From: a virus
Strand: one strand, 5' to 3'
IMG/VR virus record: IMGVR_UViG_3300012920_000056
Span: 1-52,691 of that record
DNA length: 52,691 nt
Shown: positions 20,738 through 43,500 of the stretch, piece by piece
How positions within the stretch are numbered: the stretch's first letter is position 1
Layout: the number at the start of each line of letters is the position of its first letter
Program-made: the position numbers and the translations under genes
Notes under the pieces: model-generated
Database searches by the model: none
Seen by the model: only the letters and a program-made list of their open reading frames with translations
Told to the model about the DNA's origin: nothing

Positions 20738-21397
20738 ATGGCTATTAGATTATTACCATTCCGTCAGTACGCTGAAGAAGACGTTGTAAATCTCTTTGCA
20801 AACGATACGGTTAACGATAAAGTTACCGATTCGAGCAATGGAGATGCAGGCGTTTTTGTTAAAGTAAGTGCTGGGGACTTTAGTGCTGATCCCGTAGGAT
20901 ACGAAAATAACTCTTACCTCGGTGAGACTAACTATCCTTTCATCGGACGCAATCAGTATCCAACCGTCCCATTAAAAGTTACAGCTGCAACTGCTGGGGA
21001 TTCCTGTGTTGGAGTTACCTTGTTGCAGACTGCATTGAAGGATGAAAACGAAGAAAAACTTCTTTATTATCCTCAAAAGAAGCTTGAAACTCAGTCTGTA
21101 TTGACTGGAGAAGCCGTACCTGTTCTTGGAAAAGGTATCGTTACTCTTGACAACAGCGCTTATGATGGAGCCCCTGACGTAGGCGAGTGGTTAGCATTGT
21201 CTTCAAACGCTGGTAAAGTTACTGGACATGCAGCTTATAATGGTCCAGGCGCTGGCACCCAAGTTATCGGACAAGTTCTTGCAACTGGCGCTCGCGTAAA
21301 TCGTGGTGTTTCTAAGGACCAATTTGCTGACGCTAGCGTTGGCACAGGTGCAGCTAACACAAATGGTGCATACATTGTAGCTCGTATTAATTGTTAA
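20738..21397 (+). CDS. Candidate capsid decoration protein (219 aa)
   Basis: Small Gly/Ala/Val-rich beta protein between the protease/scaffold and the capsid gene, the usual site of a decoration or stabilisation protein. No sequence motif identifies the family. Begins 3 bp after the previous stop. Confidence 0.65.
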   Translation: MAIRLLPFRQYAEEDVVNLFANDTVNDKVTDSSNGDAGVFVKVSAGDFSADPVGYENNSYLGETNYPFIGRNQYPTVPLKVTAATAGDSCVGVTLLQTALKDENEEKLLYYPQKKLETQSVLTGEAVPVLGKGIVTLDNSAYDGAPDVGEWLALSSNAGKVTGHAAYNGPGAGTQVIGQVLATGARVNRGVSKDQFADASVGTGAANTNGAYIVARINC

Positions 21398-22522: not shown

Positions 22523-22549
22523 GACCAAAGGTCAAAAAATCTTATAAAG

Positions 22550-22576
22550 AACCCGCCCTCGTGGCGGGTTTTTTAT
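22550..22576 (+). terminator. Rho-independent terminator after the capsid gene
   Basis: AACCCGCC-CTCGTG-GCGGGTT followed by TTTT. Confidence 0.92.
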
Positions 22577-22587
22577 TTCTATAAGGA

Positions 22588-22616
22588 TTGATTTTTGTGT
22601 ATAACAAAAGTATAAT
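22588..22616 (+). promoter_or_regulatory. Promoter for the connector operon
   Basis: TTGATT (22588-22593), 17 bp, TATAAT (22611-22616), located between the capsid terminator and the ATG at 22642. GTGTATAACA lies in the spacer. Confidence 0.65.
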
Positions 22617-22641
22617 AGATATACTAAACATTTAAAAAATT

Positions 22642-23070
22642 ATGCCTAGACAAAAGAAAAATACTACCGCAAAAGCTACAACCAAAAAATCTGCACCTAA
22701 GAAAAAATCAACAGCAAAAAAGCAAGTTGAAGACTTAAAAGTAGCAGATGGTAAAAGCGATAAAGAAAAAATCAAAAATCTGGAAGAAATACTTGGCGTT
22801 AAGAATGCTAATCCATTTGGCACACATGACTTAGAGGAATTAAAATCAAAAATTGACGGTATGACCATCACTGACCTGCAAACTTTCGGTATTCAGGTTG
22901 GCATTCTTCCTAGCGGAAATAAAATGATTTTAAAAAACAAAATACTAAAAGCTTTTAAAACTCATGAAGGAGCAGGCATGGGATATCATATTGGATATAA
23001 TCGGCCCATGGTAGACCCTCAAAGTGAAGCTGCTAAAAATATATTAAAACTGTCACAGGAAGGATTTTAA
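22642..23070 (+). CDS. Basic protein with possible SAP/Rho-N-like unit (142 aa)
   Basis: Residues 1-35 are a disordered Lys/Thr/Ala tail (PRQKKNTTAKATTKK). Residues ~74-110 ('MTITDLQTFGIQVGI' ... 'NKMILKNKILKAF') resemble a SAP or Rho-N-like helix-loop-helix that binds DNA. It is the first gene of the connector operon, so it may be a DNA-binding head or neck protein. Uncertain. Confidence 0.65.
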   Translation: MPRQKKNTTAKATTKKSAPKKKSTAKKQVEDLKVADGKSDKEKIKNLEEILGVKNANPFGTHDLEELKSKIDGMTITDLQTFGIQVGILPSGNKMILKNKILKAFKTHEGAGMGYHIGYNRPMVDPQSEAAKNILKLSQEGF

Positions 23071-23071
23071 A

Positions 23072-23539
23072 ATGTCAAATATCGGCGAAATCGCAACAAG
23101 AATTTACGAGAATGAATTTGCTGATGCGCCAACTGAGCTGGAGAGAGAATTTAGAATAGAGTACATTTCAGGCTGGCTGGAAGCAAACATCGGGCAATTA
23201 AATAATTTAACCTACCAAAGTTTTGGCACGGGCACGACCTTCTTACAAGAAGAAGAAAATATTTTCACTCAGTTATACCTGAAGGACTACTATACTCGAC
23301 AAGCTCGCTCGGTTTTGATGGGGTCAACAACAGGAGGTCTTGACTGGACAAGGTTAACCGAAGGAGATACGACTATTGTAAAGAATAATAACATTGATTT
23401 TGCAAGAGAGTACAAACAATTAGCAAAACTAGCTGCAGAAGAAATTAAAGATTTAGTTTACTCTTATAATTCTTATCAGGCGATGCCAAAACAAATTGCA
23501 GGAATTGATGGCGGTATAATTACTGGAGACGCAACTTAA
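23072..23539 (+). CDS. Probable head-tail adaptor (155 aa)
   Basis: Helical protein in the place of the head completion adaptor. 'LEREFRIEYISGWLEANIGQL' and a later helix (AREYKQLAKLAAEEIKDLV) resemble the helix-bundle adaptors of siphoviruses. No catalytic motif. It overlaps the next gene by 1 bp. Confidence 0.6.
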   Translation: MSNIGEIATRIYENEFADAPTELEREFRIEYISGWLEANIGQLNNLTYQSFGTGTTFLQEEENIFTQLYLKDYYTRQARSVLMGSTTGGLDWTRLTEGDTTIVKNNNIDFAREYKQLAKLAAEEIKDLVYSYNSYQAMPKQIAGIDGGIITGDAT

Positions 23540-23985
23540 TGACTTCTTTTCTTTCAGATTCTGAAAAAAATGAACTAGGAAATGTATTTGATGATATACA
23601 TGATACATTTGCGCGTGATATTTCAGTATTCCAAAGAGATAACGAAATTTTTGTTGCAACAAATGGGACGTATAATGCATTATACGCAAGAATACAAAAC
23701 GCCCCTACTACTCGAGCAAAAGTAACAAAAACTACCGTAAAAGCTAGGATACTTTACGCCCAGCAACAATCTGAAATGGATTTGCCTGGATCAAGGGCTC
23801 AAGTAAATGTGCAAATGAGTGAGGGTTCAGTTCGCGTAAAAATTGACGAAGCAGGATACAAATTATTTACTCAAGCTTCAAAAATAGAAATAGACGGCGA
23901 AGTATTTCGTATCGTTAGTGATCCTGCGAAAGCTGGAATGTTTACTGTAAAATTTTACATACTATATTTAAAAAGGTCGGACTGA
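23539..23985 (+). CDS. Probable head-tail stopper/completion protein (148 aa)
   Basis: Beta-rich C-terminal two thirds (ARILYAQQQSE, VRVKIDEAGYKLF, IEIDGEVFRIVSDPAK) fits a stopper-type beta barrel. Assigned by order: adaptor, stopper, tail-completion. It overlaps both neighbours by 1 bp. Confidence 0.6.
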   Translation: MTSFLSDSEKNELGNVFDDIHDTFARDISVFQRDNEIFVATNGTYNALYARIQNAPTTRAKVTKTTVKARILYAQQQSEMDLPGSRAQVNVQMSEGSVRVKIDEAGYKLFTQASKIEIDGEVFRIVSDPAKAGMFTVKFYILYLKRSD

Positions 23986-24596
23986 TGGCTAGAATCAATA
24001 TGAGAGGATTAAAGGCCGAAATTGCCGCAAAAGGGTACAAGATAGTTAAGCCTGCCGTTGAAGCTCGCGCAAAGCTAGAGCTAGAAAGAGCAAAAAAAGA
24101 ATTATTAAATGACTTTAACGATCACGAAGTAACAAAAGAAATAGAAGGAGGAGCAGGAGCTAAAAATAGCTCTAACACACTTGGAGGCTATGGTAATCTA
24201 TTTACATTTATAGGTTTTAGTAGTAGTGCAGATCCAATTTCACCAATCAGGAGCTTGCTGGCCCGATCAATAGAGATTAAGAGCCTGCGAAAAAAACCGA
24301 ATCAATTGTCTTTTATATTAAAATTTTCTGTACCTACTAAAGAAGAGATCGCTGCAGTCACCCCAAGTCCATGGTCTACAGAAAGCTGGGTTAATGCAGT
24401 AGAAAGAGGAATGAGTGGATTAGGTAAATATTTATATTCAAATGATCCAAATCGTTTTATCACAAGTAGATCGCGCGGAGGTATTCAAGCGGAATTCGAT
24501 ATTAGGTCAGCACAAAGCTCGAGGCCAGCAGATTATATGACAGGTATATTAAAAAGGATGCTTAAAAATATAGAAAGTAATCTTAAAAGAATATGA
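23985..24596 (+). CDS. Probable tail completion protein, HK97 gp10-like position (203 aa)
   Basis: Basic protein with an N-terminal helix (AARAKLELERAKKELL-like) and a C-terminal basic helix. The position and helix-strand order match gp10-type neck proteins. Overlaps the next start by 4 bp. Confidence 0.55.
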   Translation: MARINMRGLKAEIAAKGYKIVKPAVEARAKLELERAKKELLNDFNDHEVTKEIEGGAGAKNSSNTLGGYGNLFTFIGFSSSADPISPIRSLLARSIEIKSLRKKPNQLSFILKFSVPTKEEIAAVTPSPWSTESWVNAVERGMSGLGKYLYSNDPNRFITSRSRGGIQAEFDIRSAQSSRPADYMTGILKRMLKNIESNLKRI

Positions 24597-25495: not shown

Positions 25496-25551
25496 AAAAA
25501 AGTTCTCTTTTAGTTGTTTTTGCTGTATATAGTTAAAAACATTTATTTATT

Positions 25552-26664
25552 ATGGCTAGAAAACGTATTATCTATCAAAGCGAGGCCCTTTATGCAGGGT
25601 CGACTGGAGACGCAACACCGACACAAATCCATCGCGTACAAGACATTTCTCACTCAGTTGAAGTGACACGTACTGATGTTAATGAATTTGGTAAGTTAGC
25701 AGCTCTGAGTCGTGAAGTTATCGAAATCCCAACTGTATCATTGGACTTTTCTTATTATACGGTTGATGCAGTTAATGAAAGCACTATTGGTTTTGCTGTT
25801 CAAGGAATTGATAGCGTAACAACATCAGTGAATGCATTGTCTGGAATTTTAGCAGACAACAGTGCTGAGAAAAACTATTATATCCTTACTGTTGCTGAAG
25901 GCAATGATGCTACTCAAACAGAGCAATACAGCTCACAGCAACATGCAGCCAATGGTGTTATAGGAGTAGGTAATGGTTATCTTACCAGCTACACTTTTGA
26001 CGCATCTGTCGGTGAAATCCCAACTGCTAGTGTATCAGTTGAAGCTTCAAACCTTCGTTTTGATACTACAAGTACTGGGTTTGCAAATCCTGCTATCGAT
26101 TTTAGCGATGGCGAGGAAGTTGGCGGCACTACTATTGGTATTCCTAAATCAACTACAGGCAGCCTTTCTGCTGCAGCAATCCGCCCAGGAGATATCACCG
26201 TAGACTTTGGAGGAGACAAGCTTCAACAAGGTGGCGCTCTTCTTAACGGAATGGATGATATTGAAAGTAGTGGTGTCGCATGCGTACAAAGCGTAAGCCT
26301 TGACCTGCCTCTCTCAAGAACTCCATTACAATGCTTAGGTAGTGTATTTCCAAAATCTCGTGAACTTGATCTTCCAATCAATTCTACTCTTACTGTTAGT
26401 GCAAACCTTGCTGATATCAGCAGCGGTACATTAAACGGTCTACTTTGTGGAGACATCGAATCAAGAGACATCACGATCACCTTGAAGAATCGTTGCGGAT
26501 CTGACACAAGCATGATTTATACATTCAAGGGAGCTACACTTGATTCTCAAAGCATGAGCTCAAGTATCGGAGATAATAAAACTGTTGACTTGACTTTCAG
26601 TACTCAAGTTGGTGGACCACAAGATACAAGTAACGGTATCTTTATCTCTGGTTCAGATTCTTAA
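25552..26664 (+). CDS. Probable major tail tube protein (370 aa)
   Basis: Beta-rich protein, first of four tandem paralogues. The C-terminal part carries two cysteines ('LLCGDIES' and 'NRCGSD') and the signature 'FKGATLDSQSMSSSIGDNKTVDLTF'-like strand pair, shared in form with the next gene. G/C-ending codons are frequent, as in the capsid gene, suggesting high expression. A strong terminator follows, so it is likely the major tube protein and the others are minor versions. Confidence 0.75.
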   Translation: MARKRIIYQSEALYAGSTGDATPTQIHRVQDISHSVEVTRTDVNEFGKLAALSREVIEIPTVSLDFSYYTVDAVNESTIGFAVQGIDSVTTSVNALSGILADNSAEKNYYILTVAEGNDATQTEQYSSQQHAANGVIGVGNGYLTSYTFDASVGEIPTASVSVEASNLRFDTTSTGFANPAIDFSDGEEVGGTTIGIPKSTTGSLSAAAIRPGDITVDFGGDKLQQGGALLNGMDDIESSGVACVQSVSLDLPLSRTPLQCLGSVFPKSRELDLPINSTLTVSANLADISSGTLNGLLCGDIESRDITITLKNRCGSDTSMIYTFKGATLDSQSMSSSIGDNKTVDLTFSTQVGGPQDTSNGIFISGSDS

Positions 26665-26696
26665 AATCGTTCAATCTAGTTTATTCAAACACATTA

Positions 26697-26724
26697 AAGC
26701 TCTTGGGAAACCAAGAGCTTTTTT
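26697..26724 (+). terminator. Rho-independent terminator after the major tube gene
   Basis: AAGCTCTTGG-GAAA-CCAAGAGCTT followed by TTTT: a 10 bp stem closed by a GAAA tetraloop. Confidence 0.95.
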
Positions 26725-26735
26725 GTGTATAATAT
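26725..26735 (+). promoter_or_regulatory. Putative late promoter box
   Basis: GTGTATAATAT with TATAAT at 26728-26733, right after the terminator and 9 nt before the preferred ATG (26743). The GTG at 26725 is inside this box and so is unlikely to be the start codon. Confidence 0.55.
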
Positions 26736-26742
26736 ATTAGGT

Positions 26743-27591
26743 ATGGCATATCAAAGGAATTTTTATGACGATCAATTCGTCATTATAAATAGCAATCAAT
26801 TAAAAGGAGTTCAATCATTTGATGGCAGCTGGTCACTGCCAAAAAATAACATGACCGCTGCTGGTTACGAAAGTGTGGGTAGCGAAATTGAAGGTCAATT
26901 AATTGGTCAAGTATCAGTTGATAGAATAATTATTGATAGCAGCGATCCAATACCCGCGCTATTAGGCAGCTCAATAGATGGAGAATTAATCTATGGCCCA
27001 AATCAGGCGGCAAATAAATCATTTTATTTTGACGTCGGGTATATTGATTCATATAATTCATCATGCTCAATTGGGGAGATTGCAAGATCTAATTTTGGAT
27101 TAACTGCATATGGAAACATTGGAGAAAAAGGATCTGCTTCCTCAGCTTCCTATAGCCCTTATACGCCAAAAGTAGCAACTGCAAATAGCATGACATTAAC
27201 CACGTCATTTGGTGATACAAATGCCATACAAAGCTATAATTTAGATTTATCATTAGACGTTAATCCAATTTATAAAATAGGTAGTATGTTTATACCTTCT
27301 AAATTTGAGATTGCTACTCCTATTGTTATCACTACAAGTTTTGAAATATTCGCTAGTGAATATGAAATAAAAAATATTATGGATGGAGTATGCAGTAGTG
27401 ATTTTGTGGAAAATTTAGCTATTAGTTTAAATGAAAAATGTAATGGCCCTGCAATTCGAACATTTACATTAGATAATGCAGAATTAATAGATACAAACAT
27501 AAGCGCAGGAATTGGTGATAATTTGTCTATAAGTTTAGAATTTCAAAATTTATATAGTGATATTTCAACGTTAGTATCTGAAGTATTTTAA
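26743..27591 (+). CDS. Tail-tube-like paralogue 2 (282 aa)
   Basis: Starts MAYQRNFYDDQFV. The C-terminus repeats the pattern of the major tube gene: 'GVCSSDFVENLAISLNEKC', then 'FTLDNAELIDTNISAGIGDN' and a final strand. The frame is open to a GTG at 26725, but that lies in a promoter box; the ATG at 26743 has AGG close upstream. It may be a minor tube or tail-tip ring. Confidence 0.72.
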   Translation: MAYQRNFYDDQFVIINSNQLKGVQSFDGSWSLPKNNMTAAGYESVGSEIEGQLIGQVSVDRIIIDSSDPIPALLGSSIDGELIYGPNQAANKSFYFDVGYIDSYNSSCSIGEIARSNFGLTAYGNIGEKGSASSASYSPYTPKVATANSMTLTTSFGDTNAIQSYNLDLSLDVNPIYKIGSMFIPSKFEIATPIVITTSFEIFASEYEIKNIMDGVCSSDFVENLAISLNEKCNGPAIRTFTLDNAELIDTNISAGIGDNLSISLEFQNLYSDISTLVSEVF

Positions 27592-27592
27592 T

Positions 27593-28411
27593 ATGAGCGT
27601 TTATTATAAAAATTTAAAAACTATTGTAGACGGTCAAGTTTACTATGCTAATTCTGTTGATATGTCAGAAGGTGTTGAAATGCAAGATTTTGCCCCTATG
27701 GGAACCGCTAAAAGCTATAGCTTTCCAAGTAATAAACCAGAAGGCACAATGAACATGAATTTTTATGTTACTAGTTCTAGTGAAATATCAAAACTTCATG
27801 ATCAACTCGGTCAAACTGGTTTTATTAGTTTAAGTGTCGGGCCATTTTCAGCAAGCCACGCATTAGTAAATTCATTTTCTATACAAGGAGAGCCAAATAG
27901 TATTTTACAAGCTTCAGCATCTTTTACATATTACGGGCAAATGAGCAAGGGGTCAACTCCAACCCAAAGCAATAATACTATTGATCCTGCACATGGAGCA
28001 GCATCTACAGTCTCTTTATCAGATGTCGGAATGTCAGATGTAGTCAGCTTTGATTATTCATTTTCTCAATCATACGAAGTACAGTACAGCTTGGGTAGTA
28101 ATGAACCTTCCAAAGTAATTTTTAATGATGCCACAAAAGAAATGCAGTTGAGCGCTTTGATATCTGACGTCACTTTTTCAAAAACTAGTTTAACTGGGGC
28201 AAGCGAGTTGTGCAATGACGATTTAGACACCGAAGGCGTATATACCAGAGGTTTATCTATATCATTAAAAGATTTGTGTTCCAGTGTAATTGAGACATTA
28301 GAAATTGATGGATACCTAACGTCCAGAGATATAACTGCTGAACCTGGAGGAGAAGTTATTGAAACGGTTACTGTAGCAGAAAAATACGTGCCAAGCGGAG
28401 GTTGCCCATGA
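27593..28411 (+). CDS. Tail-tube-like paralogue 3 (272 aa)
   Basis: Shares with paralogue 4 the segment 'FDYSFSQSYEVQYSLG' and a C-terminal cysteine pair (ELCNDD, LKDLCSS). It begins 1 bp after the previous stop and overlaps the next gene by 10 bp. The final residues contain the Shine-Dalgarno GGAGG for the next gene. Confidence 0.7.
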   Translation: MSVYYKNLKTIVDGQVYYANSVDMSEGVEMQDFAPMGTAKSYSFPSNKPEGTMNMNFYVTSSSEISKLHDQLGQTGFISLSVGPFSASHALVNSFSIQGEPNSILQASASFTYYGQMSKGSTPTQSNNTIDPAHGAASTVSLSDVGMSDVVSFDYSFSQSYEVQYSLGSNEPSKVIFNDATKEMQLSALISDVTFSKTSLTGASELCNDDLDTEGVYTRGLSISLKDLCSSVIETLEIDGYLTSRDITAEPGGEVIETVTVAEKYVPSGGCP

Positions 28412-29187
28412 GTAGTTGTTATAAAAATTTTCCTATAATTGTAAATTACAGTGCTGGTTCTCCAGATAAAATTTTCTCTAACAGCGCTTCGCTATCCGAA
28501 AATTTAGATATTCAAAACGCAGAATCTCTTGGAGCAAAAGGCGCAAATACCGTTTTTACTAAAACTTTAACTCAAGGTGATCTTAGTGCAGAGTCTTATT
28601 TATATAATACAGATCTTTCTATATTTAATAATTTAAAAGGAGAAAATGATCAAGGGATTACTTTACAATTCGGTCCTTATACTTGTCCTGCTCCTTGTGT
28701 ATTATCTTCTTTATCTATTAATATAAGCCTAGGAGAGCCTATCACTGTTGATAGAAGCTTTAATTATTTTGGCGGAATTACGACTGCTGCAGCACCTACC
28801 CCGACTGTTCCTAATCTAGAGCCGATTATACCAGAAAATATATCTTTAAATGGTTTTGATTCATTGGGTAGTTTAAGTAACATACAATCAATATCATGGG
28901 AATTTTCACAATCATATGAAACATATTATTTATTGGGAAATGCAGTTCCCAAAATAGTATTTAATAATGGTCAAATAACAATGAATGTACAAGGAGAAGG
29001 AATATCCAATGCACTTACAGCTAGTAATTGTGCTGTTCCTGCAAGGACTTATTCTATTGATGTCTATGATTGTAACGGATCAAATGCTGGATCTTTGTCA
29101 ATCTTAGGTTATGCTCAAAGCAGAACTTCTTCTGTTTCTTCCGATAATGACGAACAAAACTCCGTATCTATTATACAATATTTATAA
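28402..29187 (+). CDS. Tail-tube-like paralogue 4 (261 aa)
   Basis: Close relative of paralogue 3: 'SWEFSQSYETYYLLG' corresponds to its 'FDYSFSQSYEVQYSLG', and the C-terminus again carries Cys pairs. Strong GGAGG Shine-Dalgarno; the preferred ATG may be the second codon pair (MPMSSCYKNF reads MSSCYKNF from 28408). Confidence 0.7.
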   Translation: MPMSSCYKNFPIIVNYSAGSPDKIFSNSASLSENLDIQNAESLGAKGANTVFTKTLTQGDLSAESYLYNTDLSIFNNLKGENDQGITLQFGPYTCPAPCVLSSLSINISLGEPITVDRSFNYFGGITTAAAPTPTVPNLEPIIPENISLNGFDSLGSLSNIQSISWEFSQSYETYYLLGNAVPKIVFNNGQITMNVQGEGISNALTASNCAVPARTYSIDVYDCNGSNAGSLSILGYAQSRTSSVSSDNDEQNSVSIIQYL

Positions 29188-29226: not shown

Positions 29227-29514
29227 ATGGATCAAGGTAAATTAAAGGAATTATTAGAATTTCAGATAAATAGGAACATTATTAATTTATATAAATCTTT
29301 TTTGATTATTCTTGAAGATATTCAGGATGAACATCAAAGTAATTTTGATAAATTAAAAAACGCAATCCCAGAAAATAATGAGTTAATAGATCAAGCAAAT
29401 TATTGGGACGAATCAAAAATGGAATACATAAGGAAAAAAGTTCTTGATCAAGGAAACAATACTCAAAGAGAAATATTGAGTCATTTAGAAAAATTTGATC
29501 TAACAATTAATTAA
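29227..29514 (+). CDS. Small helical protein (95 aa)
   Basis: Helical, coiled-coil-like, with no recognised family. It lies between tube-like genes and tape measure, where small assembly factors are common. Confidence 0.65.
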   Translation: MDQGKLKELLEFQINRNIINLYKSFLIILEDIQDEHQSNFDKLKNAIPENNELIDQANYWDESKMEYIRKKVLDQGNNTQREILSHLEKFDLTIN

Positions 29515-29525
29515 GGAATAAGGCT

Positions 29526-30509
29526 ATGGCAAAAGCAAAAAAACGTGAATTATACAGTTTCGATATTCAAATAGAAGAAGAAATCGAAAAAGAAGTAACA
29601 AAAGAAGTAGAACGCAAGAATGACAAAGGTGAAACTGAAACCATCAAGGAAGTTACAAAAGAAATAAGCAAGCAAGAAGTTCCTGTAAAGATTTTTTTAA
29701 AAAAGCCTACCCGAACTCAAGTTGAAGATGGAGACATGTTTTATAGCGTATGGCTTAATAAATATATTAAAATGGGATTATTGACACGAGCGATGCTCGC
29801 GAAAAAACAACTTGATATCGGGGGATCTCTTAACGAAGAAGATAAATTAAATTATGCCAAGCTATATTTAAAATTATTTGAAAAACAGCAGAATGTTATT
29901 CGATATAGCGCCATCGATTCTGCTGCAATGACAAATGACGAGCAGGAAAGGTTAGATAAATCAGTTTCTGATCTTTCTGTTATTCGTAAAGAACTTGCTG
30001 ACTTTGAAGCCGCACAAGCTTCGATTTTTGATCACACAGCTGACGTTAAAGCTCGTAACAAAACAATTACTTGGTTTTTATTGCATCTTGGATATTTTAT
30101 TAAAGGAGATGGTGATGATGATTCAGCATCCCCTTTGTTTCCAGGAACTGATTACGAAGAAAAATACGATAGCTATCAAGAACTAGACGAAGAGCAAGAT
30201 GAAATTTTTGTAAAAAGTATTGATCGGTTAAGTACGATAGCTACTATTTGGTACATGAGTGGCATTCAGGAGCAGCAAGAATTCGAAGATGTTTTAAAGC
30301 AAATGCAAAAACAAACTTCTATTGACACTAATATCGAAGAAGCTTTAAATGAAGCCAAGTCCGAAGCTAAGTCCGAAGCTAAGTCCGAGGCTAAAGACAA
30401 ACCAAAAACAGAAGCTAAAAAACCAGAGCCTAAAAAATCAGAGCCTGCTCCAAAAAAAGACGAAGCGCCTCAGCAAGATTCTGACGACAAAAAAGCTTCA
30501 GAAAGTTAA
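29526..30509 (+). CDS. Candidate tail assembly chaperone 1 (327 aa)
   Basis: Beta-helical N-terminus ('YSFDIQIEEEIEKEV'), helical core, and a low-complexity tail with repeats EAKSEAKSEAK and Pro/Lys runs (about 278-327). The place before the tape measure suggests a tape-measure chaperone. No programmed frameshift site connecting it to the next gene was seen: the next gene is in the same frame after a stop. Confidence 0.65.
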   Translation: MAKAKKRELYSFDIQIEEEIEKEVTKEVERKNDKGETETIKEVTKEISKQEVPVKIFLKKPTRTQVEDGDMFYSVWLNKYIKMGLLTRAMLAKKQLDIGGSLNEEDKLNYAKLYLKLFEKQQNVIRYSAIDSAAMTNDEQERLDKSVSDLSVIRKELADFEAAQASIFDHTADVKARNKTITWFLLHLGYFIKGDGDDDSASPLFPGTDYEEKYDSYQELDEEQDEIFVKSIDRLSTIATIWYMSGIQEQQEFEDVLKQMQKQTSIDTNIEEALNEAKSEAKSEAKSEAKDKPKTEAKKPEPKKSEPAPKKDEAPQQDSDDKKASES

Positions 30510-30527
30510 TTAAATTTAGGGGCTTTT

Positions 30528-31517
30528 ATGGCTAACCAGCCCCCAGAAGATTCGACATTAAGAAAAGTATTAACTGATGTCATACAAGGATATTCCTCTC
30601 TTGAGCATAAGGGAGAGTTAGCTTTTGTTAAACATTTTGGAAGCAAAGAGCAACAAGAGCTCGAAGTGCATTACGAAAATACATATAAAAAAGCTCAAGA
30701 TTATGGATTGCCTACAAAAAAAGAAGCACTGCAGTTTATAAAAGATGAAGGACTGTGGAGTGATGAAGAAGAAAACGAATTAAATTCCAACAAAAGTTAT
30801 TTAAAGAACCTAAAGGATACGAAAAAAAACCTCGTAATTCCTAGTCAAATAGTCGGCATCAAAAAAGATATTGAAGAAGTCGAAGAAAAAATTTTTACAG
30901 CGAAATCAAAAAGAAATTCATTAATAAGCGAGACCTGCGAGCGTTATGCTCAAAATAAAAGCAATGATTACAGTATTTATATATCTTTTTATAAAGATGA
31001 AAAATGTACTGAAAAACTTTTTAACGATAATGAATTTGATGAATTAACTAAGCAAGAAATCTCTGAATGGTTTAGCGCTTATTTAAATGTAACTGATCAT
31101 TTAAGTATTAATAATATTAAATATTTATCTATAAGTAATATATTTTCTATGTACTACAATTTATTAGGCGCAAATAATCTATATAAAATGATTGAAAAGC
31201 CTGTATATGATTTTTCTTTTTATCAGTTAAATTTATTGAATTATGCAAAGGTATTACATTCTATCATCGAAAATCATGAAAAAATACCTGAACATATTAA
31301 AAAAGATCCTGATGAATTATTGAATTACGCCGAAAGCGCAAGCAAAAATAAAAATATGGTTAACAAAAGCCGTGATAGGCAAGGTTATAGCGTAGTGGGA
31401 GCTTCGAATGAAGATATGAAGCAGATGGGGGTACAAGATGAAGCTTCTGTGAGCTTGCATGATTTAGCAAAAAAAGGTGGATCATTAACCATAAAAGATT
31501 TTCAAAAATTTAGTTAA
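30528..31517 (+). CDS. Candidate tail assembly chaperone 2 or tape-measure partner (329 aa)
   Basis: Charged helical protein with a coiled-coil (about 85-130) and an acidic/aromatic core; no family recognised. Directly before the tape measure gene. A weak AGGGG Shine-Dalgarno. Role assigned by position only. Confidence 0.6.
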   Translation: MANQPPEDSTLRKVLTDVIQGYSSLEHKGELAFVKHFGSKEQQELEVHYENTYKKAQDYGLPTKKEALQFIKDEGLWSDEEENELNSNKSYLKNLKDTKKNLVIPSQIVGIKKDIEEVEEKIFTAKSKRNSLISETCERYAQNKSNDYSIYISFYKDEKCTEKLFNDNEFDELTKQEISEWFSAYLNVTDHLSINNIKYLSISNIFSMYYNLLGANNLYKMIEKPVYDFSFYQLNLLNYAKVLHSIIENHEKIPEHIKKDPDELLNYAESASKNKNMVNKSRDRQGYSVVGASNEDMKQMGVQDEASVSLHDLAKKGGSLTIKDFQKFS

Positions 31518-31544: not shown

Positions 31545-34500
31545 ATGGCTTTAGGTAGAGGAAATATAGAAATTGATATACGCGGTAACGTAGATACCGC
31601 AGGTATTGCGCGTCAGGTTACCGCAGCTGAAAAGCAGATTCGTCCTCTTAATATAAGTTTAAACGATAAAGGGTTTAGGCAGCCATTGGGTCGAATTAGT
31701 GGCGACATAGCTGAATTTCAAAAATCTTTAGATGCTTCCGTAGCTCGTACTCTGGCATTTGGTGCTGCAGTAGGCGTAATTAACGCAGTATCTGATGGCT
31801 TTAAATCTCTAGTGCAAAGTGCTGTAGAGGTAGAAAAAGCATTAACTGATATTAATGTAATTTTAAATTTAAACAGTGGTGGTCTGCAAAATTTTTCTGA
31901 TCAATTGTTTGATGTAGCAAAAAATACAGGTCAAAGTTTTCAAACTATAGCAGAAGCAGCCGTAGAGTTATCACGTCAAGGCTTAGGGGCGGAAGAAACG
32001 CTGTCAAGAATAAATGACGCCATGATTCTAACAAGGCTTTCTGGTATGGATGCTGCAAAATCAGTAGAAACACTGACTGCTGCCATTAATAGTTTTGGAG
32101 ATACCGCTTTGACTACGACTAGCCTAGTAAATAAGCTGGCTAGTGTTGATGCTGCTTTTGCCGTAAGCACCGAAGATTTAGCCAATGCGCTTGCTAGATC
32201 TGGAGCTAGCGCTCAAGCTGCTAAAGTTGATCTTAATGAATTATTGGCTGCTGTCACTAGTGTTCAGCAAATAACTGCTCGTGGCGGTTCTGTTATTGGT
32301 AATGCTTTTAAAAGTATTTTTACAAGGCTTCAAAGATCAGGAGTTAGAGAAGCTTTAGAAGAAATTGGTGTCGCAACTACAGACGCCGCAGGAAATATTA
32401 GAGGAGCGCTAGATATTTTACAAGATTATGCAACTGTATATGGCACTTTAACAGACTCCCAAAGAGCTTATACAGATGAATTAGTCGCAGGAGTATTTCA
32501 AATCAATAATTTGCGAGCTTTAGTAAAAGATTTAGGTAGTGACTACAGTATTTACCAAAGAGCTTTAGAGGAATCAAATGGCGCAACTGATCAAGCTGTA
32601 CGTAGGAATGAAAAACTACAAAAAACATTATCTTCTTTAATTAATGAATCAGCAGCAAACGCAAAAGAATTAGCTTCTTCGCTCGGCGAACTTATAGCTA
32701 CCCCTGGGCTAGAAAATTTATTAGAAATTTTTAATTCAATAGCTGGTGCATTACGAGAATCTCTAGATCCAGAACAAGGATTTAGTTTAATAAGAACTAT
32801 GTTTGATTCTATAGGAAGGTTTATATCTGGCCCTGGGCTTGTTATCATAGGAGCTGCTTTTATTAAATTATTTAAATTTATTACCCAGCAAAGTTTAAAA
32901 GCAGTACAAGAAGTTTTTAAAATTGGTAGTGCAGCAAATAAAGTTGCTGACGCAGAAGCAAAGATTGGCTTTTTATTAAAAAATAATCGTACATTATACG
33001 AAGCTATTAGTAACGAAGCTTTGACACACGAGCAGCGCGAAGAGTTAGTTTTGCAAACCATTAAACAACAAAATAGAGCTTATGAGCAGCAACAAGCTTT
33101 GATATCCAGGCTAGCAAAAGCTAGGACTGTACAATCAGCAGTAAATGTAACTTCTAAAGCGCAAGGGTTTATCCCTAGAGCGTCAAAAGGTTATATGCCA
33201 CATTTTGCAGAAGGAACTGATTTTTCTCCAAATAAATTGCGTAAAGGAAAAGAAAAAGCAAAAGCTAGCGGTTTCATACCAAATTTTTCTAGCGAAATTG
33301 AAGGCGCTATTCATGCTGAAAAGAGCGCTATATCTGCTGGAGTAGGAGGGGCATCAAAAAGCGCAAAGCCAAAAGTATTAAAGAATTTTCCAATGGGCGG
33401 TGGTAAGCGACAAACTATCGTTGCAAATACTGACGAAGTTATTGTTCCACGTTTTGGTGGTGGAACAGGTTCAGCAATATTTAATCAAGAAATGATTAAA
33501 AAAGCAGGCATGCCAGGTGATGCAATACCAGTGTCCAATGGATATATTCCAAATTATGCTCAGTCTAAGCTACAAACAGATAAAGTTTTTCAAGATTTAT
33601 TAAGTGATTTTCAAGGTGTTGATGTTGATGTGCAGAGAGATATGTCTGGATTCGGCATGTTAACCGCAAAAGGAAAACGAGGAAACTTGGAAACTACCAG
33701 AAAGCCAGGGTTTTCAAGAGAAGACAAACTAAAAATTATCGACAGCATTGGTGGCTCTAAATTAAACAAAGATGATAAAAGTTTTTTACTGACAACAATC
33801 GGCGGAAAAAAGAAAACTAGATTTTCAAATATACCAGCGCAAACTATAGAATCTGCAGATCCAGAAAAAATTAGCGGAAAAGTAGGCGCATTAAACAATT
33901 TAATTAATCCGCATATAGCTGATGCAGTTGCAGAAGTGGCAACAAATATATATACTCGAGTATTAGGCGATGAAGTAAGCGCTCAAAATTTAGTTAAAAA
34001 CGTTCGTGCTTCAGCTAATGCTGATCAAGGAATAGTTTCTAAAGGAGCTCAAGGAGCTATTTTTGAATCTGCTATACGGCTTGGTTCTAAAGAGTCAGCT
34101 AAAAATCTAGCCAAAGATGATAAAGATGCTATTTGGGATTTTGAAGAATCAAGCGCAATGAGTGCAGATTTAAAAGCTCTGTTCTTTCCTACTTCTAATA
34201 TTTATAAAGCAGACGCAAAAAGAACTGGAGATCAAAATAATTTAAGGGAAGTTGTTGATAAAGCATATAAAGCTGATTTCTCAGATCAACTGCGAGAAAT
34301 TTACGCCCGCAATTGGTCCCCTATTGTTAGTGCTGCAGCTAAAGTGGCTCCATCAAAACAAAAAACAGAAAGAAAAAGGACGGGCACAAATTTAGCGGGC
34401 GGTTTTATTCCTAATTTTATTACTAGCATTCCTGATGATGCAATAAGACCTTTTCAGGCTTCAAAAGATTTTTTCATACCCCCAAAAGAAAACGACAGTA

Positions 34501-37500
34501 TTAAAACGGAAAAAGTAAGCGTACTTGAGCCAGGAGAAGCTCGCCTTGGCAAGGGAAAAGCTGGCGGGCAAAGAGCAGATGGGAGGGATGTATTTCAAGC
34601 GCTAATTGATATTGAATATGATAGAAGAAATATCGAAGAATTTGAGAAAATATCAAATCCAATTGCAAATAAATTAATTGATGGAAATGTCGAGTGGTTA
34701 AACAAAATAGAAAAAACTTCCTCTAAATTAATTGATAGAAATTTAGCTGATCCATCAAATATACAAGGTATACAAACTCAAGTTAGTAATTTGCAATTAA
34801 TAAAAAAAGCTAAATCAAAAGGAATCAAAGCTCAAGATATAGTTGCAGGAAAAAGCGCAAAAGGAACCGCAAAGCAAAAAAAATATTGGGAAAAATACCA
34901 AACAACCATAAAAAACGGGAAATTTAAAGACCAAAAATTTATGGAAAAAGGAATCCGAGATAAAGTTAAAGGTGCCATAGGGGAGTATGCAGCAGCAATA
35001 AAAGAAGGCACGACAGTTAATACTAAAAATTCTTATTTTGACTTAGTAAATGGTAAAGAAGTCAAGACAAAGAGAACGACTCCTGCTTCAAATTTACTCA
35101 AGAAAGGTGCTAATGAATACTTAAAAACTCTTTCTGAAAAAAATAATCTTTTTAACCAAAGAACTGACAACAAGAAGCTGAATAAAATTACTGTGATTAT
35201 GCCGAGAGACGGTAGCGTTAATTTTCAAGCGGCAGATGGATTCATACCAAATTTCTTTGGTGATAAAATTGGCTGGAAAATTGATAAAGCCAAAGGTGAC
35301 TATGCTATTACAGGAAGCAATTCTAAGCTAAGCGGTTTCAGTAGTTACCTCAAAGAAGTGTCTGAAAAAGATTCGAAAATAGTTAGCCCAAGGGCTGCAG
35401 AAATGTTTGAAAAACGAGTCAAAGAAGTTAACGCACAACATTTAAAAGATAAAGAAGAAACTTCAAGAAGATCGCCTATCGGTTTTGGTAGGCAAGGAGC
35501 AAAACATTATGCAGCGATGGATGCTGTATCCAGAAGAGAGCGAAGCGTTAGTACAAAAGGATTATTTATCAAAGATCTTGGCAAGCATGTCAAGCAGTAT
35601 AATAAACATGATATTTTCGCAGTAGATAAGTTTGGCTCGTATGATTCTTTTTTTGGTGAAGGTTATATTCCAAATTTAATTAATAGACCATTAACTACTA
35701 AAGAACCAACTCAACCAAGAAAACTAGACCTTCACTGGATTAGCTCAGTTGAAAGTAGTGGAACATCAGAATTAAGAAGAATATACAAAGATATAGAACA
35801 ATCCGCAAAAGTAGGAAAACCCTATACTCAAATTGATGCTGGATTTGTAGTTGGACCTAGAATACCAAAAATCTTAGTAGAAGGCCACAAGCTTTTAAAT
35901 AAAAGTAGAGCTAGCGGAAAAAACATTCCAAAAATGAAGCTGAATGGAGTGATGACTCCAGGTGACATAACCAAGTATATTTATCGGAATAAAGAAAAGT
36001 TAGCCGCTGGTGATAAATTCACTACAAAGGCAGATTACATGCCAGGAGAAGAAAAAGAGGTTGAGAAATACCTCAAAATCATGGGCTTGAATCCATCATC
36101 TTTCAATAGCGTAGATTTAGATGAAATACAAATGTTTAGAAATGGATTTGCTGGAGGTTTTATACCTAATTTTGCAAACCAAGTATATGATAAAGATAAA
36201 ATTCAACCACAAGAAGCTGGAGAAATTTTACAAAATATTTTATCCAACAAAAAAAAGAAAGATTTACTTATTGGACCGTCTGGAGTTGGTAAGTCAACCT
36301 TAGCTGCAAAATATGGTGAGTTTATAAAAAGCATTGAAGATGCTAAGGAGGCTAGCTCTTATACAATATTATCTGGAGCAGGAAAAACAAAAGCTGGTGG
36401 AATGTCTCCAGCATTATTAAAAATTATTGAGGCTGTTAATGGTTCTGGCGGCAAAGTATCTTACCTTTCTGCGGATGATAAAACCATAGAGGAAAGAAGA
36501 GAAAAAAGAATTTCTAAACCGCTTAAAGGTGATCTACGTTCCGAAGGCCAATTAAAAGGCACACGATTCGCGCCTAAGAATCAACCTGATTTTGCAAATG
36601 TAGTTAAAAGAGCTGCTAATAGATTCGAAATTATTAATGCAGCTCAAGGTGTTATTCCAAATTTTGCACTTAGTAATTCTATGATAGAAGGTTTGCGCGC
36701 AAAGCTTCGTCCAGGCAGTGGAGCTACAGAAGCAGAAAAAAAGAACGCAAGAAAGATACTAGACAAAGAAGAGCGCTCAACATCATTTATTAAAGATGCA
36801 GCAATAATTGATGACCTTCAGTTCTCTAAAAAACAAGTACAGGGAGCGATAGCAGATGTTACTGAAAAAAGAAATTCACTTAATCTTGATTCACAGCCAA
36901 TTGCTATTGAACAAAAAGATATAACAAAATTCGCAGAAGAATATATTAAAAAAGTAAACAGAGCAAAACGCGCTTTTACTAACGAAAAGTTATTTGGTAC
37001 TCCTTTAAGCACGAGCGAAATCAGCATGGCCTTAAAAGGTCAAGGTGGATATCAAAGAGGCAAATACATACCAAAACATTTTAAAAACATGGCTGACGGA
37101 TATATTCCAAATTTTGCCAATTTTGTTCCTAATTATGTTATGCCGCAAAGAGATTTTGCAAAATTTAGCGTAGCTATAGCTAGGTTTAATAGAAAAAATT
37201 TAATAACACCGCCATTAAAAGCGTTAGATTCAAGAGAGTTAATAAAAATTCCAAAACGGAATCCAGAAGTAGCTAGAGAAACGGTTGAAAATGTTAGACA
37301 ATTCATTAGTTCTGATGAATACCGAGCTTTAGATCCAGGAATCCAAAAAGAAGTTCAAAAGCACTATAATAAAATTGCCATTAGAACTGGAGTTAGTGAT
37401 GCAAGTCGTCCATTTACTCGACATTCAGATCCAAATTTTGAAGGCAGAATTGCTGCCGCTAAAGGCCTGATTCCTAATTTTGCTAATGAATTACAAGAAG

Positions 37501-40500
37501 CTATAGTCAGAGAAGAACAAGCTTTAAAAGATCAAGGTTCAAGCGCTAAAGTATATGTTGATCAAGATAATAGATTAAAAGATCGTAAAAATCCAATGGG
37601 CCTATTAGTTGCGAATCGTAGAGATGAACCAGGCGGTGGATTTCAAGGAGTTAATCGAGCAATGTCTATGGGAATGAATCCAAAGGTGCATGGAATGGCA
37701 AGTGGGTACATACCTAATTATGTAGCAGGAGGAGCGATTCAGTCAACTAATTTTGATTCAAGTGGTTTTAAAAAACTTACAGAGCAAACACAAAAAGCCG
37801 CCAATCAAGCAAAAATCGGAGCTGACAAGATCAGAGATCTCGGAAAAGCTGCTGGAGATACAGGTGAAGCAAGTGATAATAGTATGGGCAGATTACTCGC
37901 CTTTTCAATAGGGCTTTCTACAATAGAGTCTACCTTAGCGCAAGTTGGAGGACCAGCGTTTGAAAATTTTTCATTACAGGCTACTCAAGCTAGCATTGCT
38001 GTTGCCGAGTTAGGCGGAAATTTAACACAAGCTCTATCAAAACAGCTGGGATCTTTGGGGCAAACACTATCATCTAAAAAAGGACTTGGCGGAGTGGGTG
38101 GTTTACTTGGTGGTCTTGGAAAGACTGTTGGTAGATTAGTCCCAGTAATTGGACCTTTAAGTGTAGCAGGTGGTTTACTTTATGACGCCTACGAAAATGG
38201 TGCATTTAAAACGCTTGGCTTATATAATAAGCAAAAGGAATTGATTAAATCAACCACTCAATATACAAAAACGCTGGAAGAACAACAAAACAAACAAGCT
38301 CAAAGTATAGAAAAAGTAGATAAATTTTCTGTAGTCCTTTCAAAGCTTGGCAAAGCCGCGCAAGAGGGAAATATAGATGCTTATGGAAAATTTTTACAAG
38401 AGCTAACTGAACAAGCTGGAGAGCTAGACAATATTGATCCAACCGCATTCCGCGAATTGCTTAATAGCGCAGGAGATGCTAAAAAACTTAATGAAGCGAC
38501 ACAAGCATTAAAAGACTTAATTAACCAAGGAAGTCAACTAACAAACTTTCAAAAAGATTTTGCAGATTTAACTAAGGAAATTGCTGAAGCTGACGGAGAC
38601 TTAGATAAAGTTAACGCTGGCAAAAAAATACAAGAAATTGGGAAAACATTAGTTAGTGGTTTAAATCTTGATCAAATGAAACAATTAGTGGGGGGGCTTG
38701 CTGATTTTGATGGTAGTTCTCAAGATTCCGCTAATACTCTCCTCAAGTTACAAAGTGTGTTTGGTAATTTAGATAGTGAAACAAAAAGCTATATTAGACA
38801 AAACGAAGGGCTGAGTAAATCATTGCTTTTATCTGTTAAATCACAAGCTGGTTATAAAGTTGCGGCAGATAATTTAACCCAAGCATATATTAAAGCCCGA
38901 AGTCCAGTTCAAAATTTAAATGCAGAATTTTCAAAATTAGCTCTTGCCATTGATAATTCAATTAAGAATATAAGAGCTTCATTTAGTACTTTATCAGAAG
39001 TTGGGAAAATAGAGGCAGAATCTAGAACAAAAACATTAGAAGCAACTTCAGTAGTAACTCCACAGGCTTCAGCTCAAGGGCAAGCTATTGCTGATCTTGC
39101 AAGAGCTCAGCAAGAAGCTTCGCAAGATATTAAAACATCATTGCAGTCCTTTGCTTCGGAAACTATTAAAAGCGCAGAAAAAAATAGTCAAGTACTAAAA
39201 GGTCCAATTAAAACCTTAGTTGACGGGATAAAGTCTGGCGATGTTAATTTAAATGCTGCAATATCATCTTTACGAGAAATTCAACAAACTGGCAATGCCG
39301 AACAAAAAGATTCTGCAACAAAAGCTCTTGATACAATTCGTGGAGCTAATCAAGAATTCATAAGTTCTCAAAAAGTAATCGATGCTACTTTGAGAGCTCA
39401 ATTGCAAGAATCGGCAATTCAGAGCGCTATATTCAGAAGAGAAAATCAATTAAGCGAAGGCCAACTAAAAACACTAATTGAATTTAATAACGCTTCAAAA
39501 ACAAATCTAGAAAGATTATCAGGCTTAAAAGAGTCTATTGATTTAGTTCGCGAACTAGGCGGAAATGAAGATATTTTAGCAGAACTAAAAGCAGGTAATC
39601 GTCAACGGTCAGAATTAGAAAACCTAGAAGCTGCATTTTCTAAATTTACTGGGCAAGCTTTTGACGCAATCAATTTAGATGATCTAGAAAGTCAAGTAGA
39701 TAGTTTCATTGCTTCTGATCGATTTTCTGAATTAGACACTAAGACCCAGAGCTTGGTGGCTGCATTGACTGGCGCTTTTGATAAAATTAATAAATTTGAA
39801 TTACAAGATAAAGGAGTATCTTCTGCCGAAGATGTTGGGGCAGCTAAAACCATTAGCACACCAGATGAAGCTATTAAATCTTTAGCAACTGAATTTGAAA
39901 CATTTTCTCAAACATTAGCAACAGGTTTAAAATTAGATCCTGAATCTATCAAATCATTATCTTCAACAGAAAGCATTCAATCTATCGCAGAAAGTATTAA
40001 GTCAACATCTGAAACAAATCAACAAAATCTAGCTAAAAACGCTGAATTGCAAAAAGCGCAAACTGAAGCCTTAATAACTGCTGCATCTAAAATAGATAGT
40101 AGCGGCAGCAAGTTAGATAGTGCTGCAGGTGCCTTACTTGAGGCTGCAAAAACAATTAGAGCTACCTCAGGCACTTCCGCTTCTGGTTTTGTACCTAGTT
40201 TTTCGGCTAATTCTCAAGCTGTCACGCGAGCAATAACAACAGAAAGAAACCTGGGAGGAAAGCCTGTCGTCGATTATAATTCTGCAGTAGGAACTTATGT
40301 AAGAGATGGAAATACTCAACCTAATTTTGCTGCTGTAAAAAGAGATCATCCAGAAGGCTTAAAAAGAGCTGCTGAAAATTCAAAGACCTTGCAGGGTATG
40401 GCTGCATCTCGAGGTTTTGTTCCAAATTTCTTTGGTAGTGCTGCTGGAGTAGATTTTACTGGAACAGGTGGTAATTTCAATCAATCATTTGAGCCCACAA

Positions 40501-43500
40501 GAGAACAAATAATTGCAGGCAACTCACAAGAAGCGCGAGAAGCTTTAGAAGAAAAAGGTTATCAAGCCGCTATTAGCGCAGCAATCATTGGAAACACTGG
40601 AGCTTTTGATAAATCTTTATTTTTAGGTTCCGCAATGAGATTACCTTTTGATAGAAAGCCGTGGAGGAAAATTTTAAATACCAATGAATACGCCAAAAAG
40701 TTTTACAATTCTGTTTATAATGCTGAACAGCCTAGTTTTAGCGGGGCTGATAAAATTTATACAGAATCCACAAAACAATCTTTCGAAAATTTACAAAAAA
40801 GCTTTTTTGAATCAATGGAGAAAGAATCAAAATTGGGGAATCTATGGGATGTTGTTCTAGAAAATAAAACTACCGCGAGAAAAGAATTTAAAAAATATTT
40901 TAATCAAAACAAAAAACTATTTACCAGCTTTGATTTATCAAAAGATGCTTATGACAAAAATGTATATCAAACAATGTCTCCATTGTATAATCTTCGGGAT
41001 CAAATCAATAATGCATATCTTCATAATGCTATTGGTACAGTCGCAGGGCCACTTGATAAAGTTCCACGGTTAAAATCTGGACTGGAAAATCCATATAGTT
41101 TTAAAATACCAGTAACAAATGGCGCTTCATTAGCTTATGTACCAGCCGTGACAAGTCTTTATAAACAAAATTTTGTTTCAACGGGAGATTATTCAAGAGT
41201 GCCAGGTTTCGCAAAACATGTTTTACTTAAAAATGTAGCAGATAAAATACAAGATATTCATTACCGTGATGATTTAGTTCTTCCATATGATATAAAATAT
41301 AATTTAAAAAATGAGCAAGGAGAAACTATATCTCCTACAGCCTTTTTAGATATAGACGTAACACAAGGGCGAAAAAATACTTCAAGTATCCGCGACCAAC
41401 AAAATAAAATTACTGAATTAGATACTTTAGAAAGGGTCATACAAAATAAAATTTCTGCTAACGATCAATACATAGAAAAGAAAAAGGGTGATCTATACAT
41501 GCTTAAAAATCCATTAATTGATCCTGATTCAGGCTTAATGCCAGTAGTCACGCCACCAGATCAAATTAAAAAATTAGAAAGCCATATAAAAGATGTTCAG
41601 GATCAAAAAACGATTTTCCAATCGCAAATTAGTAAACATAAATTAGCAAAAGAATATATACAAAAAAATCTAGAGTACGCGCATAAATACAAAAACATAC
41701 CTAACGAACAATTTGCAACCAATCCTATATATTTAAATGATAGCGGTAAGGAGCAAAAACTCAAAAGCTGGTCTTCGAGTAAAAAAAATAGTTCGATCAA
41801 TAATTTATCTACATGGTTTCATGGCCTGAAACTTACTACTTTAAAAGAAAATAATTTTAAATCTTTAATTAGCGGATTTAAAGAAAATGTCTTTAACACA
41901 GAATTTAATAAAAATAATTCTGAAGCGAAAAAATTTATAGAGACTGCATATAATACAGTATTACCTACCGCACTTAAAAATCTTTCACTAACCCCAAAAG
42001 AAGATTACAGCCAAGCTGTACAAAACACTATCGATGAGATTAAGAATTATAAATTAAAATCTCCTGTAATGGTAGAAGAATTAAAATCTGCAAAAACTGA
42101 AAGACAGAAAAAAACTATCGAAAAAGATGCAGCAAGCAGCGCAAAAAGTCAATTAGAGTCTGACACTGCTATTGCAGAATCATATTCAGAAGATTTATTT
42201 CCTCAAACTTTCGCAGAATCTTTAAAAGAAACTGAGACAATAATACAAGGTCAAGAAAAATCAAGTGATCTTTTAGATCTATTTCATAATGCAATATTAG
42301 GGAGATCCGCAGAATCTGAATATGCAGCTGCTAATGCAAACATTGGCGAAATTGCTGAAAGATTTGCAAGGCAAAAGTCGATGGCAGAACAGGCGACATC
42401 AAACAAGAAAGCTTTTATAGAAAATCAAATCAAAGGTAGAAAAAACGTACTGCCAAGATATGAAAAATTCGCAGGCAATAGAACAACACCTCAGCAAAAA
42501 AAATCTGCAGAACGAGCTGAAATTTTGAAAAGAGAAATTAGAGCTATCGAAAAACATGCGGAAATTTATGACAATAGTGATGCAATAAAGTATATAATGT
42601 TTGAGGATATGCGTAGTCCATTATTAATGGATGGTAAGCCTATATATCCTATGATTCCTACTGCCCCAGATGATTATGCTGAAAGATTCGAGAAGTATGA
42701 AAAAATATTTGAACGCTATCAAAAATATAAAGATAGCGGTAGCTTCTTAAAATTAAATCCAAACAATCAATTTGCAAATCAGCCATGGTCGGAAGATTAC
42801 GCTAGGATTCATACGGGAACGTTTTTAGATCAATTCTCTCAACAGAATTATGATCAAAGAGTTGAAACCTTAAAAAGATTAGGTGCTGATATAAAACTAA
42901 GAAATTCAGACACAAATCCGTTTTTTCAACTAACCCAAGAACAAGGTCGTAACGACTTTTTAGCAAACCTTAAAAATTCAGCCACAACTCTCCCTGAAAA
43001 ATATCTGTATGACAGAATAGGATTTTTAGTAGCCAATGAGTGGGTGGGTGATGTGGCTAAATTTGGAGTAACTGAAAAATTAAGCCCTACATTTAAAAAA
43101 CTTCAAACAATCGGCATGCCACTTTTACCTAATGCGGAAACAAATTATATACCACAAATAAAATTAATATCCGCAGAAAGAATAGATGGAGGTCCTGGAA
43201 CTCAAGAATATTCTGGGCCAGTGGTATCAGAACTTCTAACGCGGGAAGTAATGACTGAAGCAGCAAAATTACAACAAGCAGCATTTTACGAAAAAAATAA
43301 GAAATTTTATGAAGACGCAGGTATTAAATTACTTCCTGAAATGCTGGCTGGTAAAAAAATTGAATTTAATAAATATCCTCAATATTTAGACTGGCTAGCT
43401 GAAAAGTCTGGTTCTGGATTTAAAGTTAGTTCATTTGTTAATCAAATGCTAAACGATACAGAAAGCGTCGCAAATTTTGATTCCTGGAGAAACAAATATG

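Follow-up and report, generated by a model that had tools for sequence, protein, structure and literature searches.

A virus record of 52,691 bases (IMGVR_UViG_3300012920_000056; hereafter the window), from an uncultured bacterial virus, carries four consecutive genes, T1 to T4, that are predicted to encode paralogous tail tube proteins. A conserved terminator, the presence of T1 in all relatives, and codon use indirectly support T1 as the major tube protein and T2 to T4 as accessory ones. By analogy with the p140 protein of phage T5, the accessory proteins would most likely make up rings where the tube meets the tail tip, and not be mixed along it. A first-pass annotation made from the letters of the sequence had proposed one major and three minor tubes at 25552-29187; the coordinates are right, the profile comparisons relate all four genes, and the division of roles has gained indirect support, while its suggestion of rings that differ in composition is still hypothetical.

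Homology among the four tube genes

Profile comparisons indicate that T1 to T4 are all homologous, with the pairing that the first-pass annotation had recognized. In particular, narrow alignments restricted to the window's clade (5 to 7 rows) yielded hhalign probabilities of 99.1% for T1-T2 and 98.9% for T3-T4; between the pairs, they yielded 16.1% for T2-T3, 2.5% for T2-T4, and 0.2% for both T1-T3 and T1-T4. With wider alignments that include distant relatives, the T1-T2 probability was 99.5%, and the two pairs were connected to one another: T2 matched the combined T3 and T4 alignment (T3+T4) with a probability of 97.2% (score 80.8, compared to 22.9 for the highest of 20 column-shuffled controls), and T1 matched it with a probability of 77.5% (score 44.8, compared to 18.7 for the highest of 20 such controls). 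T2 against T4 alone still gave 1.2%. Moreover, a 277 amino acid (aa) protein from a distant relative, record G011, is hit by all three profiles, T2 at 3.1e-28, T1 at 8.8e-12 and T3+T4 at 2.1e-4, bridging the four-gene set.

The two-cysteine pattern noted toward the C-termini is real and conserved. The cysteines are C299 (15/16 rows) and C315 (16/16) in T1, C217 and C233 in T2 (both 7/7), and C208 and C222 in T4 (both 5/5). In the T3+T4 alignment, C207 is found in 13/13 rows and the C229 column in 8/13, because the second cysteine of T4 is aligned one or two columns off. The motif SQSYE..Y.LG is exact in both T3 and T4, and the 'SxSIGDN' motif that had been used to pair T1 with T2 holds as a link between them when reworded as S-x-[SG]-I-G-D-N. 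Across the relatives, identity to the window's copy is 65-77% for T1, 49-62% for T2, 42-49% for T3 and 52-69% for T4.

Predicted folds and family matches

The AlphaFold models predict that T1 and T3 share the two-domain tail tube fold of T5 pb6, T5 p140, and the tubes of P74-26 and SH-Ab15497. The T1 model, calculated from 16 rows, has a predicted local distance difference test score (pLDDT) of 74.9 and a predicted template modelling score (pTM) of 0.79; the T3 model, from 13 rows of T3 and T4, has a pLDDT of 79.5 and a pTM of 0.76. The best Foldseek match of both models in the PDB is T5 p140 (7qg9_G; E 7.6e-12 for T1 and 1.1e-10 for T3). VIA-align superimposes T1 on the T5 tube (9iny_A; Z 19.3, 298 residues, 4.4 A), SH-Ab15497 (Z 19.3) and the P74-26 tube (8ed0_A; Z 19.1), and T3 on SH-Ab15497 (8xan_A; Z 16.2, 245 residues, 4.2 A), P74-26 (Z 15.8) and T5 (Z 15.7), with matches that are near full length (residues 6-370 of T1 and 5-268 of T3). 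Structure prediction had been suggested as a check of the paralogy; for T1 and T3, it returned the same tail tube structures and not different folds.

Next in the VIA-align results are a Haloferax virus tail protein (10.5 for T1 and 11.9 for T3) and then one-domain tube and Hcp proteins (8 to 9), which align to one or the other half of the models, indicating that each chain holds two tube domains. The internal duplication is seen by fold only; by sequence, it was not visible in comparisons of the N- and C-terminal halves of T1 (12.9%) or of T3+T4 (0.8%).

Among sequence families, T3 passes the curated cut-off of Phage_tube_2 (PF18906; 31.6 bits against 27), T4 (22.3 bits) and the T2 homologue of locus L025 (20.5 bits, E 3.9e-4) fall below it, and the Pfam search returned no PF18906 match for T1 or T2. 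With the T3 model as a query, a viral structure library returned 77 matches at E <= 0.001, many of which are unnamed or called major tail protein. T1 and T3 had no match in 50,697 phage records, T2 had no relative in bacterial and archaeal genome contigs (72 pattern matches, 0 confirmed), and the T1, T2 and T3+T4 profiles had no sequence match among solved structures, the few at E 0.33-1.7 being unrelated proteins.

Terminator, candidate promoters and codon use

The terminator reported after the first gene was recovered as an 11-pair stem followed by a T run, and is the top plus-strand match in a terminator scan of the window. It has a counterpart directly 3' of T1 in 15/15 loci that were read and in locus L061, including relatives that have T1 alone. 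Its presence without paralogues indicates that it marks the end of the major-tube unit, and is not a device for the paralogues.

The same annotation had placed a fresh promoter box before the second gene. Something is indeed conserved there, as the string TTTTTTGTGTA follows the terminator in 15/15 loci and in L061; its nature as a promoter did not hold up as well, and it is best called a candidate. The TATAAT at 26728-26733 sits only 9 bases ahead of the T2 ATG and is not among the window's 43 sigma-70-like sites, a number that is itself no excess over chance (44.2 expected). Further, the pattern TTTTNNTGTA(A/T) is found 34 bases ahead of T1 and 50 bases ahead of the gene at 22642, and strings similar to TTTTTGCTGTATATAG occupy the same place before T1 in most relatives. 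A promoter role for this pattern is only a guess, because it has 18 sites in the window on both strands (7 plus and 11 minus). Elsewhere, at 22522-22642, a hairpin resembling a terminator follows the capsid-like gene and is itself followed by TTTTTGTGTATAA, a combination also seen after T1.

The codon index, calculated with respect to the capsid gene, is 0.627 for T1, 0.488 for T2, 0.543 for T3 and 0.549 for T4; 26 genes were scored, among them those at 20738 (0.623), 29526 (0.600), 19131 (0.660) and 2400 (0.646). T1 also has a larger share of C-ending codons than its paralogues in L005, L007, L009, L010 and L025, and not clearly so in L008 and L020. The assignment of T1 as the major tube gene draws on its codon use, which lies nearer to that of the capsid gene than the codon use of T2 to T4 does, together with the conserved terminator and the presence of T1 in all relatives.

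Tube gene number among relatives

Tube genes were counted in the window and in 23 loci (L005-L013 and L020-L033), several of which represent one virus or nearly identical ones. T1 occurs in every relative, and the number of tube genes found ranges from one to five. Four tube genes precede the tape measure gene in the window, L008, L010/L012, L013, L020 (whose contig stops shortly past T4) and L061; L007 has at least four, being cut in T4. There are five in L005/L006, three in L025, and one in L021, L022, L023, L024, L026, L027, L032 and L033, while L028/L029 have one before the tape measure gene. L009 contains T1, T2 and an extended copy of T1, at which point the sequence ends, and L011, L030 and L031 stop inside T1 and are uninformative on number. 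Across the four-tube viruses L008, L010/L012, L013, L020 and the window, the open reading frames (ORFs), gene order and cysteines are all kept; in L061, the ORFs and order are kept as well. As a separate observation, the gene before T1 in L011 (L011:8691-9941) encodes 416 aa, compared to about 300 aa elsewhere, by a C-terminal addition.

A search of 14 whole records found T3/T4 in 5/14. In the single-tube records G006, G007, G009, G010 and G014, no T2 or T3/T4 gene was found elsewhere in the record, and the T2-profile matches fell within the T1 gene. The records may be fragments, and the T3/T4 profile search overlooked the T3-like protein of G011, later found at 2.5e-7; T3/T4 absences therefore hold at that sensitivity. 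Some single-tube relatives have a 235-240 aa gene inside the tail operon (L043:433-1155, L024:4699-5421 and others), where it separates the small gene that follows T1 from the conserved gene that comes next. From its motifs it is presumably sulfotransferase-like; it was tested as a hidden tube gene and rejected.

In L005/L006 and L009, a second T1 gene follows T2 and has a C-terminal extension of short GDTDYDxNYFYxC-type repeats (L005:12042-13982 and L009:12158-13525), ending in L005 with a Thr- and Ser-rich stretch of about 150 residues. Over the tube part, these copies are 46.9% and 56.0% identical to T1, and in a tree both fall together in a single clade (100/99) near the T1 group of the window. 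This fits one duplication, the copy being lost or absent in the lineage of the window; the window has no C-terminally extended tube gene.

Tape measure length may also vary with tube gene number. The protein has 4445 to about 8166 aa where there are several tube genes (window, G001, G008 and G011) and 2798 to 3827 aa where there is one (G006, G007 and G010), from few records with a readable gene and with the G008 and G011 lengths obtained by arithmetic on coordinates; the link is suggestive and confounded by kinship. The G008 gene (locus L025) spans L048:1-16707 on the minus strand and L050, giving 5569 + 2597 = about 8166 aa.

Proposed arrangement and its alternatives

According to the proposed arrangement, T1 would be made in bulk, aided by its own terminator-bounded transcription unit, and would stack into the body of the tail. 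Each chain would contribute two tube domains, so that three chains close into a ring of six-fold appearance, as they do in T5 and P74-26. T2, T3 and T4, as diverged copies probably made in small amounts, would each supply one special ring or a small number of them, placed after the end of the T1 stack and before the distal tail protein, and would in this way match the tube to the tip of the tail with its fibres. The gene order probably mirrors the order along the tail (T1, T2, T3, T4, tip). Taken whole, with T1 as the bulk tube and T2 to T4 as low-copy distal rings, we hold this proposal to be reasonably probable.

Distal rings are favoured because of the comparison with T5 p140 and because of the gene order in G011, the record of L028. 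In lambda, gpM forms a ring below the tube. In G011, the tape measure gene directly follows T1, and the T2 and T3 homologues lie between it and a lambda gpM-like gene (PF05939, 1.3e-13), an order that places T2 and T3 at the joint between tube and tip. The tip genes continue with gpL (PF05100, 5.1e-49), JAB (PF14464, 3.6e-8), a gpI-like gene (PF06805 at 22.0 bits, cut-off 23.8; phrog_32, 2.2e-33) and lastly gpJ (phrog_31, 3.2e-125). G011 also has a further T1-like protein of 374 aa (4.9e-19; L042:3821-4945, minus strand), far downstream of these tip genes.

Several observations weigh against the proposal, which is built on sequences and predicted models. For T2 and T4, the two-domain fold is predicted from homology only. 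None of T1 to T4 matches Baseplate_Tube_p140 (PF23779) in Pfam at E <= 1, a family to which T5 p140 itself scores 463.6 bits, and the likeness to p140 is thus one of fold and place, not of sequence; T2 to T4 likely work like p140 without belonging to its sequence family. The T2- and T3-like genes of G011 come after the tape measure gene, not before it, and by eye neither of their proteins has the full cysteine pair. The relatives that lack T2 to T4 show that such rings are dispensable in general. The codon evidence is weak, as its reference is one gene of 368 codons and the genes at 19131 and 2400 outscore T1; in L008 and L020, codon use in T1 barely differs from that in T3 and T4.

It is unlikely that T2 to T4 are instead interspersed among T1 subunits along the whole tail, changing its stiffness or surface. 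Phage SPP1 offers a precedent, as excerpts from PMC8718954 describe a tube that mixes gp17.1 with its extended form at 3:1, and the extended T1 copies of L005/L006 and L009 mean that mixed tubes may exist in this group. However, T2 to T4 are diverged (in the narrow alignments, neither T3 nor T4 matched T1 directly), they carry no decoration domain, and their homologues in G011 stand between the tape measure and tip genes. Rings at the other end of the tail, between the tube and the tail terminator, are highly unlikely: in the window, T2 to T4 are indeed close to the neck genes, but all of them are on the tip side of T1, and the G011 homologues follow the tape measure gene.

We regard as distinctly unlikely a graded end, where T2, T3 and T4 form their own ring types below T1 in gene order and the number of such types (none to four across the relatives) is adjusted to the tip and the length of the tail, or else one asymmetric ring made by all three. 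The specific case of a T2-T3-T4 heterotrimer, a single asymmetric ring of six domains, is marginally less plausible than the neck-side rings. Its arithmetic fits, since three proteins with two domains each give six (as modelled for T1 and T3, and expected for T2 and T4), but L025 and G011 have two accessory proteins only, so that a 1:1:1 ratio is not general. We give the least credence to T2 to T4 being remnants or alternative versions of tube genes that matter little to the virion. They are absent from single-tube relatives, and conservation is lower for T2 and T3 than for T1; against this, their ORFs, order and counted cysteines are maintained throughout the four-tube viruses.

Genomic setting

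The tube genes are placed between the neck genes and the tape measure gene in the window and its relatives (Table 1). T1 to T4 adjoin one another in the interval from the conserved gene at 24593 to the tape measure gene; a neck role for the genes at 23072-24596 is assigned by position only. The start of T2 was taken as the ATG at 26743, where the program-made ORF list begins at the GTG at 26725, and the T4 ATG at 28408 overlaps the T3 stop.

Table 1. Coordinates of the tube genes and neighbouring features in the window.
Feature	Position	Strand	Description
TTTTTGCTGTATATAG before T1	25517..25532	+	candidate promoter of the major tube gene, unproven
T1	25552..26664	+	370 aa, two predicted tube domains; putative major tail tube protein; AlphaFold model and fold matches; in all relatives
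Intrinsic terminator	26696..26721	+	stem of 11 pairs, then T run; directly after T1
TTTTTTGTGTATAAT stretch	26719..26733	+	contains TATAAT at 26728-26733; candidate promoter of T2, unproven
T2	26743..27591	+	282 aa; putative minor tube paralogue nearest T1; hhalign homology, fold by homology only
T3	27593..28411	+	272 aa, two predicted tube domains; putative minor tube paralogue; PF18906 match and AlphaFold model
T4	28408..29187	+	259 aa; putative minor tube paralogue paired with T3; hhalign homology, fold by homology only
Three small conserved genes (29227, 29526, 30528)	29227..31517	+	between tubes and tape measure; gene order kept in relatives
Tape measure protein	31545..44882	+	4445 aa; named from size and position

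The three small genes have no family match at curated level, and from their position they may encode assembly chaperones. The long gene that follows them is presumably the tape measure gene, as we take size and position to be its criteria; the N-terminal part of its product is 43.9-80.8% identical to that of the long post-tube gene in G001, G006, G007, G008 and G010. The protein contains many G-[FY]-[IV]-P-N-[FY] motifs among apparently inserted domains, and a GPSGVGKST stretch resembling what we take to be a nucleotide-binding loop. The first two genes after it, at 44926 and 46814, were considered as further tube paralogues and rejected for want of a convincing profile match (20.9% for T1 against the 44926 group, and <1% for other pairings).

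Comparison with known tail tubes

The closest known arrangement is that of phage T5 (AY543070), where T5.144, the gene immediately after the major tube gene T5.145 (pb6), encodes p140, the baseplate tube protein of the PDB. Excerpts from PMC10038345 describe p140 as a ring that is flanked by the last pb6 ring on one side and the pb9 hexamer on the other, lacks the decoration domain, points to duplication of the tube gene, has 9% identity to pb6, and is encircled by the p132 collar that holds the fibres. Excerpts from the same source and from PMC10034513 describe the two-domain tubes of T5 and P74-26 as trimer rings. The first-pass annotation is fair in its premise of a single tube gene in most phages, but T5 already provides a second tube-fold protein beside the major one. 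Similar to T5, the models of T1 and T3 have the two-domain fold, also found in the chains of P74-26 and SH-Ab15497; a minor tube gene (T2) directly follows the major one, ahead of the tape measure gene; and the minor proteins have no decoration domain. Unlike T5, which has one minor paralogue, there are three here, and none to four extra tube genes across the relatives; a terminator follows T1; the PF23779 sequence match is missing; and T1 lacks the Ig-like domain of pb6.

Phage T4 has a contractile tail with one tube domain per chain. Its gp19, gp54 and gp48, which are named in excerpts from PMC10038345, offer a parallel in having tube-like rings at the tube's distal end. The SPP1 pair of a plain and a C-terminally extended tube protein (gp17.1 and gp17.1*) resembles T1 and its extended copy in L005/L006 and L009. 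In SPP1, the two forms arise by translational frameshift of one gene (PMC8718954, in excerpt), whereas these relatives use a separate second gene, which is absent from the window.

Overall, the arrangement enlarges the known one from T5, which limits the surprise; what is interesting is that relatives differ in how many tube genes they have. With one, three, four or five tube-type genes, these viruses provide a natural series along which the transition from a uniform tube to specialized rings can be traced, and a way to test whether the order of tail genes mirrors the order of tail rings, in a T5-like arrangement that is matched here by fold and gene place, and not by sequence.

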